Assembly (NCBI GenBank): GCA_025934495.1
Contig: JAICXY010000006.1
Location: 1 to 62,617 of the forward strand
DNA: 62,617 nucleotides
DNA from: Candidatus Nitrosocosmicus sp.
Lineage (GTDB): Archaea > Thermoproteota > Nitrososphaeria > Nitrososphaerales > Nitrososphaeraceae
Direction of reading: 5' to 3'
Every line of letters begins with the position of its first letter. Positions within the stretch are counted from its first letter, which is position 1. The notes under the pieces were generated by a model. That model was given only the letters and a program-made list of their open reading frames with translations, did not search any database and was not told the origin of the DNA. Shown one piece after another: positions 3,995 to 56,412 of this stretch. The translations under genes and the position numbers were made by a program.

Positions 3995-5038
3995 GTGGAG
4001 TACGAGGTAATTTCAAATAAGAACAATGAAATATTATTAAAGAGTGACAAAGTTAAAATTTATTTAGACCCTTCACATATAATAGATGAAGAGTTCATAT
4101 TCATTTCACATGCTCATACAGATCATCTATTAAATAAGAAACACTTAAAAAAATTTAATTTAAAAAATAAAATAATTAGTTCGCGTGAAACGTCTGCAAT
4201 AGCAAATTTAAGAGGATATTCTATAATGGATTATTTAGGATCTTGTGAAGGTGTTCAATTAATAGATAATGGTCACATTTTAGGATCAAAAGGTTTACTA
4301 GTCAACAATAAAATTTTTTACACATCTGACTTATCTACAAGAAAAAGAGCTTTTTTAAAAAAACCAGAAATACCAAAGGTAGAAACATTAATCATTGAAT
4401 CGACTTTTGGTAAACCTGAATACCAATTTCCACCGCTTGATCAAATAATTCATCAAGTAAACTCATTAATTTCTGAAATGTATGCAAGAGGAATTCCGAT
4501 TATTTTAATGGGATACTCATTGGGTAAAGCACAAATACTAACTTCACTATTTGGAACATGGAAGCCACTCATAGTGCATGATGATATATACCGATTTAAT
4601 GAAATTTATAAAAATTTTGGAATAACCTTGGAGGATTCGATACCTCTATCAAACGCCAAAGAAAAAGAAATATTAAATAAAAAACCATGGATTTTAATTT
4701 ATCCATTAACCAGCGGTAAACATAATTTTATTGCATATTTAAAAGAAAGATATGGGGCAATTACGGTAGGATTTAGCGGTTGGGCTATTAATAAAAATTA
4801 TTCTAATTTTATGAATTTAGATTACGTCATACCATTTAGTGATCACTGCGATTTTAATGAATTGGTAGAAGTGGTAAAGAAAAGTAAACCAGAAAAGATC
4901 TTTACTACTCATGGATTTCAAAAAGAATTTGCCCGTTATCTAAACTTTATTGGTTTTAATGCAGAACCAGTGGATAAACAGAAAATAAATAAAATAAAAA
5001 ATAATAAAAATAATAAAACACTAGATGGGTTTTTTTAA
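3995..5038 (+). CDS. MBL-fold RNA-processing exonuclease-like protein
   Basis: Metallo-beta-lactamase-fold protein related to the mRNA 3'-end-processing/beta-CASP group (COG1236-like). The zinc-binding motif HAHTDH is at residues 39-44. It is followed by a GHILGSKG block, a TSDLS block where a third ligand Asp is expected, IIESTFG, and a late SDHCDF/THGF pair typical of beta-CASP enzymes. At 347 residues it is much shorter than aCPSF1 and lacks KH domains. GTG start at 3995. The last residues are Lys/Asn-rich. The 3' end runs into a T-rich stretch shared with the convergent LLM gene, 4 bp away. Substrate unknown; an RNA nuclease is inferred from the fold. Confidence 0.8.
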   Translation: MEYEVISNKNNEILLKSDKVKIYLDPSHIIDEEFIFISHAHTDHLLNKKHLKKFNLKNKIISSRETSAIANLRGYSIMDYLGSCEGVQLIDNGHILGSKGLLVNNKIFYTSDLSTRKRAFLKKPEIPKVETLIIESTFGKPEYQFPPLDQIIHQVNSLISEMYARGIPIILMGYSLGKAQILTSLFGTWKPLIVHDDIYRFNEIYKNFGITLEDSIPLSNAKEKEILNKKPWILIYPLTSGKHNFIAYLKERYGAITVGFSGWAINKNYSNFMNLDYVIPFSDHCDFNELVEVVKKSKPEKIFTTHGFQKEFARYLNFIGFNAEPVDKQKINKIKNNKNNKTLDGFF

Positions 5039-43702: not shown

Positions 43703-45315
43703 GTTTTGTTGCATGATTCTTAAAATCTCTTTCAATATGTTTTATCTTAATAGATATCATCTTGTTATACAATGATGATTTTATCGCTATTTCGTTCACC
43801 ATATTCTCAAACTTAGAATAAAAGGCTCTGTTAACTTAAGATATTATTCTTTATTATGTTGATAAACAAACAATTTGAGCCATTGTTTGATATGATTTAA
43901 TTTACACTTGTTCTTTTTGCAAGGAAAGTAATCGTCAAAATTATCGATTCTATCTTTTATGTATTGTATTGTCCTTTCAATTATGCTTTTTTCAAAAGAA
44001 GAATGAAGATGATGATTTAATTTTAAAAACTTGCATGCTTGTGGATACCAAGTACCATCATCGTCTGATGAAACTTGATGTAATCCATACTTGTCTAAAA
44101 CAAGAGACAGAAATCGTTCAATAGCAACAAACATGTTTCGTTCTTTTGATATGTGAAAGGAAAGAATTTCTTTATTCTTTGGTTCAATTACAATCCAAAG
44201 TCATAGTAGTTCAGAGCCTGCCTGCTTTTATTGCAGTTTCATCAATTATGTATTCTTTAATGTCTCTCTTGTAAAAAATCTCTTTGGTTTGTAATTTTGT
44301 ATCCAGTGCCAAATTGATACATGGCTTATTTTTATTATTTTTAAGAAAGATAATGCTTTGGCAGCATTTCTAAATGATAATCCAAGAAAGTACAAGTATA
44401 ATACGTAACCTATAATTTGTAATGGTGTTCTGCTGTTTCTAGATCGCATAAATAAAATGGTCATTTTCAAGCTATAGGTTTTTCCTTAAGTTAACAGAGC
44501 CGAATAAAAGGACCTCCAAGCATTCCTTTATAACGGTACCTCCGTTTCTACAATCCATCTTGATCTATAGATTACAATGTCATAATTTTATTCTTGCAAA
44601 TTATTGCTTTGGGATATGAATGATAGTTTCGGTATGTTTTCTTATTTATTTCAACCAAACTTGACCATTCTTTCATTTATTAATATAAGGTAAGATCCCA
44701 TTGTGGAATATCTGTCTAAAAATACCGTTGTTATCATAGACGCCATCAGCAAAGAGTTTGCCCAATGATGTAACGCTATTTGATTCTATAATGGTTTCAA
44801 CCAGGTCTGGTAATGCCTTGCTGTCATCATGAACACGTTCGCCTGCGGCTACTTTCATTAAAGTAATTTTTTTGCTTTTTACATTGGCTGCTACATATAT
44901 TTTCAAATATCCTTACTTTTATAATTCCATTTATCTCATAGTTATTGGTCTCTAATGGAGGATATTACCTACACTATCTGTCGCAATGATAATGGAAACC
45001 TCTCGAGTTCTTCCTTTTGTTATCATTTTACAAATTCATATCCAATCCGTTTATTCTTCCTGCTTATTTTACTGTAAAAGAGTGCTTTTCCCTTTGGTGG
45101 GTCTTCTTGTTCAATACCTTCATTGGTTTGTTTGTATGGAACATGAAAGTACACTTTGGTAAATCAAAGTAAGAGTAGGAAGATATCAAACAATGAAATG
45201 TCTTTCCAACTTTACCTTTGTGCATCTCTTTTAAATCATTATCTAACCTCTTTCATATGATTTCTCAAAAGATGTTGCCTGAATGTTTCTATAATATGGA
45301 ATCATGTAAGAAATA
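43703..45315 (-). mobile_element. IS5-like element relic (copy C), split by an IS6-like insertion
   Basis: Ends GTTTTGTTGCATGATTCT (43703) and, inverted, TTACATGATTCC (about 45309). Reverse-strand fragments run from an LKEMHKGKVGKTF block near 45230 to the open DDE part KIYVAANVKSKKITLMKVAAGERVHDDSK...GKLFADGVYDNNGIFRQIFHNG (44673-44906). Then YSKFENMVNEIAIKSSLYNKM lies on the other side of the nested element (43710-43815). Joining across 43816-44509 restores the order, so the element was longer than 900 bp before decay. Confidence 0.8.
43824..44501 (-). mobile_element. IS6-like element, 678 bp, with 8-bp target duplication
   Basis: Terminal inverted repeats GGCTCTGTTAACTTAAG and its complement at 44485-44501. 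The flanks are GAATAAAA on both sides (43816-43823 and 44502-44509), an 8-bp duplication as the IS6 family makes. Two reading pieces, MKMTILFMRSRNSRTPLQIIGYVLYLYF...SIWHWIQNYKPKRFFTRE (44246-44470) and MFVAIERFLSLVLDKYG...DDDGTWYPQACKFL (43844-44134), are the N- and C-terminal halves of one transposase separated by frame damage. Confidence 0.85.
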
Positions 45316-46540: not shown

Positions 46541-47218
46541 GGCTCTTAACTTAACGTATTATCTGTTTATTATGTTTGCTAATGAAAAGATTAAACCACT
46601 TTCTTACATGTTTTAATTTACATTTCTTTATTCTACATGGAAAGTAATCGTCAAACCCTTCCGTTCTATCCTTGATGTATTGGATTGTTTTATCTCTCTC
46701 TATATGATGCTTTTCTCTAATGGAATTAAGATGATGTCTTTGTTTTACAAATGTACATGCTTGCGGTGGATACCAAGTTTCCACCACCGTCTGTTGAGAC
46801 AGGGTACTTGCCATGGATATTTATCAGTGATGCAATAAAACGCTCGGCTACAATAAGCATTGTTTTATCAAAGGATATATCAATATGAAGGATTTGCTTA
46901 TTCTTTGGTTCAATTGCAACCCACAACCAGAAATATTGAGAACCAATTCTAATCAATGTTTCAACTATAATAAATTCATCAATCTTTTTTCTCTTGGTTA
47001 AAAGTTTCTTTGGTCTGTATTTCTGAATCCATTTCCATATTGATATATGGCTTCTGCGAACAAGCCTTTGTAATGCTTTTGCAGTATTTCTATAGGAAAG
47101 ACCATCAAGAAAATAGAGATACAAAGAATAAGCAATACATTGGTTTGGTTCTCTTTCTTTGATATTTCAATAGGGTATAACAAGTTTTCAGATATAGCGT
47201 TTCCTTAAGTTAACAGGA
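46541..47218 (-). mobile_element. IS6-like element relic, second copy
   Basis: Same family as the copy at 43.8 kb: left end GGCTCTTAACTTAAC and right end CCTTAAGTTAACAGG. The transposase is split by shifts into MYLYFLDGLSYRNTAKALQRLVRRSHISIWKWIQKYRPKK...FWLWVAIEPKNKQILHIDIS (46726-47124) and a DDE part with WYPPQACTFVKQRHHLNS and IQYIKDRTEGFDDYFPC (46551-46814). No clear target duplication. Confidence 0.75.
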
Positions 47219-47379
47219 CGTATCCTAGTTATTTTTTTTATTTTTAAAGCTATAATATATTTCTCCTGTTAAGAATTGTTTTTATCTGACATGTCCAGAT
47301 TTGATTTAATATTATTATAAAAAAAATAAAATAAAAAAAGTATTTGGCTATATTCAGAATGTTTCTTTATGTATTTTGA

Positions 47380-47709
47380 TTATTGATTGTTTGCTGCTGC
47401 ATTACCGCCGCCATTGATGTTTGCACAGACTCCAAGATTATTACCTGAAGTAGAAATTGGGGAATTTGCACCGGCTGTTAGAACTGTTGAATGTTGATGT
47501 TGGTTACATCCTTGATGAATACTCTGGTGTATGCTAGAGTGTTTGCCGTGGTGGTGATGATGTGAGAAGAAGTGATGATGATGATGATGGTGATGTCTGT
47601 GTGCAAAGGCATTGTCTGCGCTAGATACGATTGTACCTGCTATCATTATTGCTGAAAGTGCTACTACTACTAAAGCTATTGATGCTTGTTTTTTAGTTAT
47701 AGTTGTCAT
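47380..47709 (-). CDS. Small secreted His-rich protein (paralogue 1)
   Basis: A 109-residue protein. Residues 1-35 are a signal peptide (TKKQASIALVVVALSAIMIAGTIV, cleavage likely after NAFA). A His-rich region follows, with eight consecutive His, a further HHHHH and scattered HQ pairs. The C-terminus is STVLTAGANSPIS, two Cys (one in GVC) and NINGGGNAAANN. The second copy at 55867 keeps the signal, the central Ser/Gln/His part and the C-terminus but lacks the long His runs. A metal-binding role (Cu, Ni, Zn) is inferred from composition. Its 90-bp upstream region matches that of the paralogue. Confidence 0.75.
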   Translation of the reverse strand: MTTITKKQASIALVVVALSAIMIAGTIVSSADNAFAHRHHHHHHHHFFSHHHHHGKHSSIHQSIHQGCNQHQHSTVLTAGANSPISTSGNNLGVCANINGGGNAAANNQ

Positions 47710-47799
47710 ATAGTAATTGTTATTACAAAATAAATAGTATATTTGTAGTATTTCACTTTTAAGCAGAATGTTTTCCTATTTATTTATACTATAATTTAA
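47710..47799 (-). promoter_or_regulatory. Duplicated promoter/leader of the His-rich gene
   Basis: On the reverse strand TTAAATTATAGTATAAAT begins 90 bases and ATACTACAAATATAC about 41 bases before the ATG. Both blocks recur at the same spacing from each other upstream of the paralogue at 55781-55866. They could be operator plus BRE/TATA elements. Confidence 0.65.
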
Positions 47800-47863
47800 T
47801 CCTAAAAAGTTTATAGAATCTTATTTTATGATGATATTACCTAAAGAGATTATCTATTTGAAT

Positions 47864-53025: not shown

Positions 53026-53842
53026 ACAGATGTTAACTTAAGGAAAAACCTATAGATTTAGAATGACCCTATATTATGAAATCTAGAAATAGAACACCAT
53101 GCTTTGTTGCATAATTTGAAAAACAGTTAATGATATACTCCATTTAGGGGCACGATAATCTAATTTCATTGTTTCCGCCATAATTACATTGATAAACCAT
53201 TAAAAAATAACGATTAAAAGATCATGTAACAAAGCAAAACATCAAAAATTATTGGATATGGATTACATTTGTACTTTTTAGGTTTATCCTTTCGGAACAC
53301 TGTCAACAAAGCATTATCTTTATTATATATAATAAAAATAAGTCATCTTGTATCAATCTGGAACTGATGGCTTCAAAAGTACAAGCCATGGAAATATTAA
53401 AAGAATAATAAAATCAAAGAATACATAATTGATGGAACTGCTATAAAAGTAGGTTCTTCAGGCTTAGTGTGACTTTGGGTTGTTATTGAAAATGAAAAGA
53501 ATGAATTCTTGGATTTGACGTACAAAGGAGAGAAATATGTTTGTATAAATGGGAAAGTTTATCATCGGTTTAATCAAAGGTTATGATAAACATTCGGTTT
53601 TAACAGACGTTGGTAAAACATGGTATTCACCACAAGGCGGTCAGTTTTTAAAACAAAGTAATCATATTCATTTCTCTTTTGAGAAAAGTATCATAGAAAG
53701 GACACTGCAATATGTTAAAGATAGAACAGATATCTAGACGACCATTTTCCATGCAAAAGAAAGAGGTGTAAGATAAAGAACATATTAATTGGTCGAAACT
53801 GTTTGTAGATTACCACAATAAGATTAACTCTTAAGTGGACAG
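53026..53842 (+). mobile_element. IS6-like element relic with nested MITE, third copy
   Basis: Left end TGTTAACTTAAGGAAAAACC (53031) matches the ends at 44.5 and 47.2 kb; the right end CTTAAGTGGACAG (53830) is diverged. Its N-terminal coding part (ATGACC... AATAGAACACCAT) is interrupted at 53100 by a MITE and resumes at about 53240. The C-terminal frame SVLTDVGKTWYSPQGGQFLKQSNHIHFSFEKSIIERTLQYVKDRTDI (53549-53737) is readable. Confidence 0.75.
53101..53235. repeat. MITE-like element, family 1, copy a
   Basis: 135 bp bounded by GCTTTGTTGCATAATT and ATCATGTAACAAAGC, which is the terminal sequence of the IS5-like copies. It interrupts an IS6-like transposase. It matches 58837-58971 in the opposite orientation (AAAAACAGTTAA, GATATACTCCATTTAGGG). 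A CAT at 53098 and 53240 could be the target duplication. Confidence 0.75.
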
Positions 53843-55740: not shown

Positions 55741-55780
55741 AGAGTATATTAAGAAATAATGTTCCATAAATTTATTATGG

Positions 55781-55866
55781 TTAAATTATAGTATAAATTA
55801 ACAGTATAATGTTATACTATAAAGTATTATACTACAAATATACAAGTAATTGTATATAGATACCAA
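55781..55866 (+). promoter_or_regulatory. Duplicated promoter/leader of the second secreted paralogue
   Basis: TTAAATTATAGTATAAAT at 55781 and ATACTACAAATATAC at about 55829 repeat, with the same internal spacing, the two blocks upstream of the gene ending at 47709. Between them the + strand has an extra TATAATGTTATACTATA dyad. Confidence 0.65.
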
Positions 55867-56154
55867 ATGATAACTGTAACTAAAAAACAAGCATCTATAG
55901 TATTAGTAGTAGTAGCATTTGCAGCAATAATGATTACAGGCACTATTGCAGCAGGTTCGGGTAACGCGTATGCCTCACATAAAAAAAATCATACACACCA
56001 AAGCATTAGTCAAAAATGTAAACAATCTCAACATTCTACCCTTGTATCATCTGGTGCGACTTCACCAATTGGTCTATCAGGCAATAACGCAGGTCTCTGT
56101 GTAAACTTGAACGGTGGTGGTAATGCAGCAGCATCTGACCAAGGTCACCATTAA
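55867..56154 (+). CDS. Small secreted protein (paralogue 2)
   Basis: A 95-residue protein, paralogous to the one at 47380-47709. The signal peptide MITVTKKQASIVLVVVAFAAIMITGTIA is nearly the same, followed by ASHKKNHTHQSISQKCKQSQHSTLVSSGATSPIGLSGNNAGLCVNLNGGGNAAA. The poly-His runs of paralogue 1 are absent. Two Cys (KCKQ and LCVN) align in both copies and could form a disulphide. Function unknown; a metal-binding or surface role is a guess. ATG start; T-rich tract at 56195-56212 may terminate it. Confidence 0.7.
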   Translation: MITVTKKQASIVLVVVAFAAIMITGTIAAGSGNAYASHKKNHTHQSISQKCKQSQHSTLVSSGATSPIGLSGNNAGLCVNLNGGGNAAASDQGHH

Positions 56155-56412
56155 TCAAATAGGATAACAAAACAAAATATATTCTGAAAATACATTTTTC
56201 TTTTTTTCCTTTCATATTTCATATGTTAGTACAATAAAAACTTTCTAACAATCCAAAAATAATGAAAAGTAGAGATAACAAATAATAACAAAAACCCTTT
56301 TTATTTTAAGAGTAAATATTCTGAAAATAAATATGATACAGGTGTCTGAATTAGTTTCAAATAGATCCTCAAATATGTCTTGATATTTTTAAATTATGCT
56401 ATCCTCATTTGC
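56155..56412. terminator. T-rich spacer between convergent genes
   Basis: TTTTTCTTTTTTTCCTTTC at 56195 is a likely termination tract for the secreted-protein gene. Nothing else is recognised. Confidence 0.4.

Follow-up and report, generated by a model that had tools for sequence, protein, structure and literature searches.

A multi-copy family of small, probably secreted proteins across the genus Nitrosocosmicus and its conserved, probable promoter block

The two small genes at 47380..47709 (minus strand; gene A, 109 amino acids) and 55867..56154 (plus strand; gene B, 95 amino acids) of the window, i.e. the whole stretch of 62,617 nucleotides from Candidatus Nitrosocosmicus sp. that was analysed, belong, judging from sequence comparison, to a large, undescribed, multi-copy family of small secreted proteins that is spread throughout the genus Nitrosocosmicus. 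Members of this genus are ammonia-oxidizing archaea of soil and wastewater. Many of the family genes in the genome under study are preceded by the same upstream block, which appears to be kept by selection. Taken together, these genes can be pictured as a multi-copy exported family with a selected common promoter block, the products of which would assemble into polymers rich in beta structure, on the cell surface or within the matrix, a picture that seems somewhat likelier to be right than wrong. The main interest lies in the size of this undescribed family and in its regulatory classes, and the common modules offer an entry point to the regulation of genes in archaea for which the known operators are few.

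The preliminary description of the window treated the two genes as just two paralogues, and in this respect it has to be corrected. With the two proteins as queries, at least 31 and at least 29 matches, respectively, were obtained in their own genome. About 18 distinct family genes can be told apart among the loci that were read, scattered over many contigs, with some of the genes cut at contig ends. A profile built from 25 members matches each of the 15 Nitrosocosmicus genomes, from at least 13 to at least 75 times per genome (70 candidates were scored in the larger genomes, so that these counts are lower bounds), compared with 0 to 8 matches per genome in other genera of the same taxonomic family and none among the 18 genomes of genus g6. 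The homologues in the genus mates are roughly 30–45% identical to the copies in the genome under study, and 14 genus mates have no close orthologues. Above the cut-offs, the members match neither a Pfam nor an NCBIfam family, the sequence searches against PDB were likewise empty, and no account of the family was found in the literature searched, which left out most subscription journals. Some copies in other genomes have identical scores although they occupy different places in the genome (G004:C1:653613 and 657845; G003:C1:1097999, 1117929 and 2469641; G006:C88), which suggests very recent duplications. Two copies look broken: L186 has an intact upstream module and a stop codon soon after the start, and L110 has an altered reading of the C-terminal block.

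The architecture of the two window genes is the same, i.e. a signal peptide, a tail and a C-terminal block with a putative strand-turn-strand fold. In gene A, the signal peptide, called by eye rather than by a signal-peptide program, comprises residues 1–36 (47602..47709, minus strand) and ends in A-F-A. It is followed by a His-rich tail (residues 37–57; 47539..47601, minus strand), which, from the sequence and the composition of 88 members, is the predicted N-terminus of the mature protein, and by a block rich in Asn, Gln, Ser and Gly that the alignment places at 47383..47538 (minus strand) and that contains two cysteines. Gene B has a signal peptide of the same length (residues 1–36; 55867..55974, plus strand; also called by eye) that ends in A-Y-A, and a short, His-poor tail. 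The alignment shows that this signal peptide is common to genes A and B and most of the copies in the genome. The common signal peptide, the common C-terminal block and two upstream motifs had all been reported in the preliminary description, and all were recovered at the same positions.

Upstream of gene A, on the minus strand, lie motif 0 (TTCTATAAACTTTT, 47805..47818), motif 1 (TTAAATTATAGTATAAAT, which includes TTATA-G-TATAA, 47782..47799), a site that corresponds to the palindrome TATTATACTnnnnAGTATAATA and is degenerate here (47749..47770, from sequence comparison), and motif 2 (ATACTACAAATATAC, 47737..47751), which ends 27 nt 5' of the ATG and would probably act as TATA box for an mRNA without a leader. 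The counterparts upstream of gene B, on the plus strand, are motif 0 (TTCCATAAATTTAT, 55762..55775), motif 1 (55781..55798), the palindrome TGTTATACTATAAAGTATTATA (55810..55831), which has 2 mismatches compared with the symmetric form found exactly in contigs C42 and C181, and motif 2 (55829..55843). The stretch bounded by motif 1 and motif 2, both included, aligns between the two genes over 63 bp without gaps, as originally described, with identities of 18/18 in motif 1, 17/30 in the spacer and 15/15 in motif 2; the homology extends farther than had been noticed, to about −117 from the ATG in the BLAST alignment, which has a second block over the C-terminal part of the coding region and the 3' end. 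Downstream of each gene, the alignment of the 3' flanks reveals a terminator-like element that consists of a short stem and a T-run (47319..47362, minus strand, for gene A; 56178..56215, plus strand, for gene B). This element is common to the copies, with the stem reading GTATT/AATAC or ATATC/GATAT by eye; these variants preserve the pairing, and therefore a real terminator is indicated.

The upstream block is specific to the family. The module spans about −120 to −27, and a 118-nt query recovers ten copies in the genome (E-value 7e-10 or better), all of which precede family genes, and nothing comparable in 14 genus mates (best E-value 8e-4). Motif 1 occurs exactly 6 times in the genome and motif 2 exactly 5 times, in every case upstream of a family gene; the sixth exact motif 1, on contig C181, is not accompanied by an exact motif 2. 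Only close matches carry meaning, because motif 1 with 3 mismatches allowed is found at the chance level (124 matches versus 182 for the reversed control). A search of 300 genomes from the order for the composite of motif 1 and motif 2 gave 6 places, every one of them upstream of a family gene, compared with 0 matches for the reversed composite pattern in the same genomes. The spacing between the two motifs is constant in all copies except those on C123 (+1) and C101, and several copies have the inverted repeat TATTATACTnnnnAGTATAATA between the motifs, the matches with 0 or 1 mismatch being those on C42, C181 and C123, family promoters only. By the motif, module, palindrome and composite searches, the block thus stands before many family members and nowhere else, and no copy of the module was found upstream of a non-family gene in the genome. 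At least five members of the family in this genome are without the module (C123:87, C143, C166, C40 and C179:10675), and therefore there is more than one class. Two of these, L042 (C123:87) and L051 (C143), represent a second subfamily within the genome, which is marked by MKTITINSKTLS and is devoid of cysteines; their upstream sequences resemble each other and include TAAATTATTATATATAAT.

The conservation of the block is not what would be expected from shared history alone. Across the divergent set of 32 pairs with protein identity below 75%, the mean identity is 0.86 in motif 0, 0.90 in motif 1 and 0.89 in motif 2, compared with 0.59 at the fourfold-degenerate sites, 0.70 in the spacer and 0.48 in the 27-nt leader before the ATG; farther upstream, between −330 and −150, identity is 0.31 over all pairs, aligned without gaps. 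For genes A and B, the chance of matching at 33 of the 33 motif positions at the fourfold-site rate of 0.59 is about 3e-8, a value to be read with the proviso that the motifs were chosen because they match, and the same columns are 86–90% identical over the 32 divergent pairs. The leader has diverged despite the conserved stretches on both sides, and therefore purifying selection is indicated, rather than youth of the copies or a single conversion tract. Recent duplication alone, in which the promoter is copied together with the gene and the similarity either has yet to decay or is maintained by gene conversion, would explain why conservation is also high at the beginning of the coding region, and some of the copies are indeed recent: those on C175, C32, C118 and C179 and gene A are 86–93% identical, with homology up to −726. 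The divergent copies, however, have lost much of the identity at the fourfold sites and still retain the motifs, and neither recency nor one conversion tract produces diverged sequence in the 27 nt that separate motif 2 from the ATG while both sides are kept, so that this explanation appears highly improbable. The original suggestion that the shared upstream sequence reflects selection on common regulation is therefore supported, and more strongly than could be seen from the window, since the neutral flanks are far from being equally similar. A mobile cassette with fixed ends was considered as well and dropped, because the length of the common 5' flank varies between pairs.

The preferred reading of the block is that of a promoter. 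Under this scheme, each family member would be a transcription unit that duplicated along with its own promoter and terminator, with the block of this species arranged as motif 0, motif 1, the inverted repeat TTATACTnnnnAGTATAA and motif 2, which is TATA-like and lies some 27 nt 5' of the ATG; selection on the block would make most of the copies answer to one common, putative regulator, and the leaderless mRNA would probably start near the ATG. A different possibility is that the block is a transcribed leader, e.g. a riboswitch, and that the TATA box is motif 0 or motif 1, given that both contain TATA-like letters and that the inverted repeat could fold as a hairpin. There is no Rfam match, however, no ribosome-binding site is seen 5' of the ATG, and in the genus mates, too, the upstream module stands at a fixed distance from the ATG, all of which makes a leader very unlikely.

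Exact copies of the block outside the genome under study were found in one genome only, G015, where the block precedes a homologue. The motifs are exactly present in G015 and absent from 14 genus mates, which have no close orthologues to compare; the question, raised with the original observation, of whether orthologues carry them is thereby answered only in part. G015 was rejected as evidence from another genus because its contig (L154, G015:C5, 1-4264) shares 92% identity with contig C187 of the genome under study along 1.9 kb and its NUDIX protein is 99% identical to the one of that genome (57–62% in genus mates), which indicates a near relative or a mis-binned contig. In the classes that were read, the homologues from the genus mates bear other upstream modules. 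One of these, TGCTAGAATATTAGnGTATTGC, which precedes genes of the genus mates' own subfamily, has 79 matches in 11 of the 15 genus genomes (11 species) and 0 in the reversed control. Among the 30 loci read out of these 79 matches, an ORF begins behind the module in 27, at 45 nt in 26 of them and at 44 nt in one. The genus mates would thus appear to follow the same principle as the genome under study, with a different block. At five of the 27 loci, the mature protein has no relation to the family, and the signal-peptide region is similar in part; promoter and signal peptide thus seem to move as a pair and to be used by several exported proteins. These five (L164, L165, L173, L176 and L179) are secreted proteins positioned exactly 45 nt behind the module, one of them a small domain, GWIKLPSNLNPQLGDCM.

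Within the proteins, conservation resides in the Asn/Gln block. Six residues are invariant in 25 aligned sequences (Q45, Q49, N73, N74, N82 and N86 in the numbering of gene B). The tails differ between members, and therefore the tail appears to vary quickly compared with the conserved block. The His-rich middle, described at first as present in one copy only, is indeed confined to gene A inside the window, but genome-wide it recurs in the copies on C175, C123, C32, C118 and C75, and the copy on C40 has an extreme version of it. The latter copy (L052, G000:C40, start at contig position 4021) is an 83-residue ORF in which the family signal peptide is followed by nearly nothing but His and Phe runs, with the C-terminal block missing. 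The tails encoded on C153, C33 and C166 are mixtures of His, Phe and Asn, and, among the 88 members compared, most of those from other species have a tail rich in Lys where gene A has its His-rich one. All members have a signal peptide by eye, mostly ending in A-x-A. The predicted mature part contains 0, 2, 4 or 6 cysteines in 83 of the 88 members, and the odd counts come mostly from cut or mis-started sequences. In the alignment, the two cysteines of the FC...SC and GC...VC subtypes are nearly symmetric about the same turn, as expected of a strand-turn-strand unit that would be closed by a disulphide.

The composition of the tail bears on a possible role in metal handling, in which the His-rich tail would serve as an extracellular binder of copper, zinc or nickel, with the common promoter as a metal-responsive operator. 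Ammonia oxidation depends on copper, several of the His-rich copies contain 19 to 22 His after the signal peptide, the C40 product passes from the signal peptide straight into His and Phe runs, and there is a weak match to the Pfam family ZrgA (18.1 bits versus the curated cut-off of 27.4; E-value 0.0028). ZrgA-type His-rich metal-binding proteins resemble gene A in being secreted and having His runs, but gene B and most of its relatives are without such a run, and the Pfam match lies mostly within it. Moreover, gene B has few His behind the same promoter, the copies on C42 and C33 carry other tails behind that promoter, Lys replaces His in most members of the genus, and the conserved part of the protein is the Asn/Gln block rather than the tail. 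Metal handling as the common function is therefore unlikely; the suggested response to metal stress is possible for the His-rich copies, where a metal role would be secondary, and does not extend to the Lys-tailed majority of the genus.

Structural modelling points, with low confidence, in another direction. The AlphaFold2 model of the gene B product has no fold (pLDDT 51), whereas that of a three-repeat member from a genus mate shows three strand pairs of about 20 residues (pLDDT 60, pTM 0.43, i.e. low confidence). When this three-repeat model was compared with PDB by Foldseek, FapC came first (E-value 1.9e-5, probability 0.97), with a TM-score of only 0.17 for a model of pLDDT 60, and the CsgA fibril third, at a non-significant E-value of 0.63; a viral fold library gave no match at an E-value of 0.001. 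In FapC and CsgA, according to the literature, imperfect repeats are stacked on one another, with conserved Asn and Gln holding the stack together (PMC12822426). The putative Asn/Gln-rich strand-turn-strand units of the family weakly resemble such functional amyloids. Like FapC of the Pseudomonas Fap system, the family proteins are predicted to be secreted and have Asn/Gln-rich imperfect repeats (PMC12822426), up to three in number, and FapC is the top fold match of the three-repeat model; they differ in being archaeal, in having one to three units, in being encoded by dozens of scattered copies rather than one operon and in the low TM-score. PDB sequence searches with one protein and two profiles detected no homology to FapC, and the model-based likeness would be one of kind rather than of demonstrated common descent. 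Curli subunits CsgA and CsgB are also small secreted proteins, with a Q..G.N.A.Q-like pattern recognizable by eye, but the units of the family are about 50 residues long and have cysteine pairs, the curlin repeat of Pfam has no match among the nine family members scanned, and CsgA was not recovered by any sequence search. On the preferred reading, the product would be exported by Sec. The tail of the mature protein would be charged, with Lys prevailing in most species and His in the present one, and would be joined to between one and three strand-turn-strand units rich in Asn and Gln, which often contain a putatively disulphide-bonded cysteine pair. By stacking, these units would most likely build a beta-rich polymer, either on the cell surface or within the matrix, and this polymer would work in the manner of FapC or curli, short of a claim to membership in either system.

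The cell surface of the genus provides a setting for such a polymer. Nitrosocosmicus lacks the S-layer gene slp1, and the genome of N. franklandus revealed no replacement for the S-layer protein (PMC6776761); cryo-tomography of Nitrosocosmicus shows no visible lattice, a thick wall of 18 nm and hair-like structures of about 30 nm of unknown make (PMC11559005), and the cells attach to surfaces as aggregates (PMC12448741). An exported, beta-prone family that is expanded in a genus without an S-layer is therefore a natural candidate for a coat or matrix component, and a surface-coat role is plausible from this co-occurrence. The S-layer proteins (slp1) of other ammonia-oxidizing archaea would be comparable in their outer-coat location, but they form a crystal lattice and are absent from Nitrosocosmicus (PMC6776761, PMC11559005). 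A bolder version holds that this family supplies the protein of the outer coat, e.g. of the hair-like structures, and replaces the S-layer with amyloid-like subunits encoded by dozens of copies that are divided into regulatory classes by subfamily-specific promoter modules. In this specific form the proposal is speculative and rather unlikely to be correct; the family itself is a concrete, testable candidate for the S-layer replacement, with many copies in every member of the genus and no profile match in the 18 g6 genomes.

The neighbourhood of the two genes contains broken ORFs at 46551-47124, 43844-44470 and 53549-53737 of the window that are similar to one another (TWYPPQAC..ERTIQYIKDR..DDYFPC). 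Four pieces scanned against Pfam gave no match at 0.001. A similar piece is present in L154, and these ORFs are probably remnants of one type of transposase.
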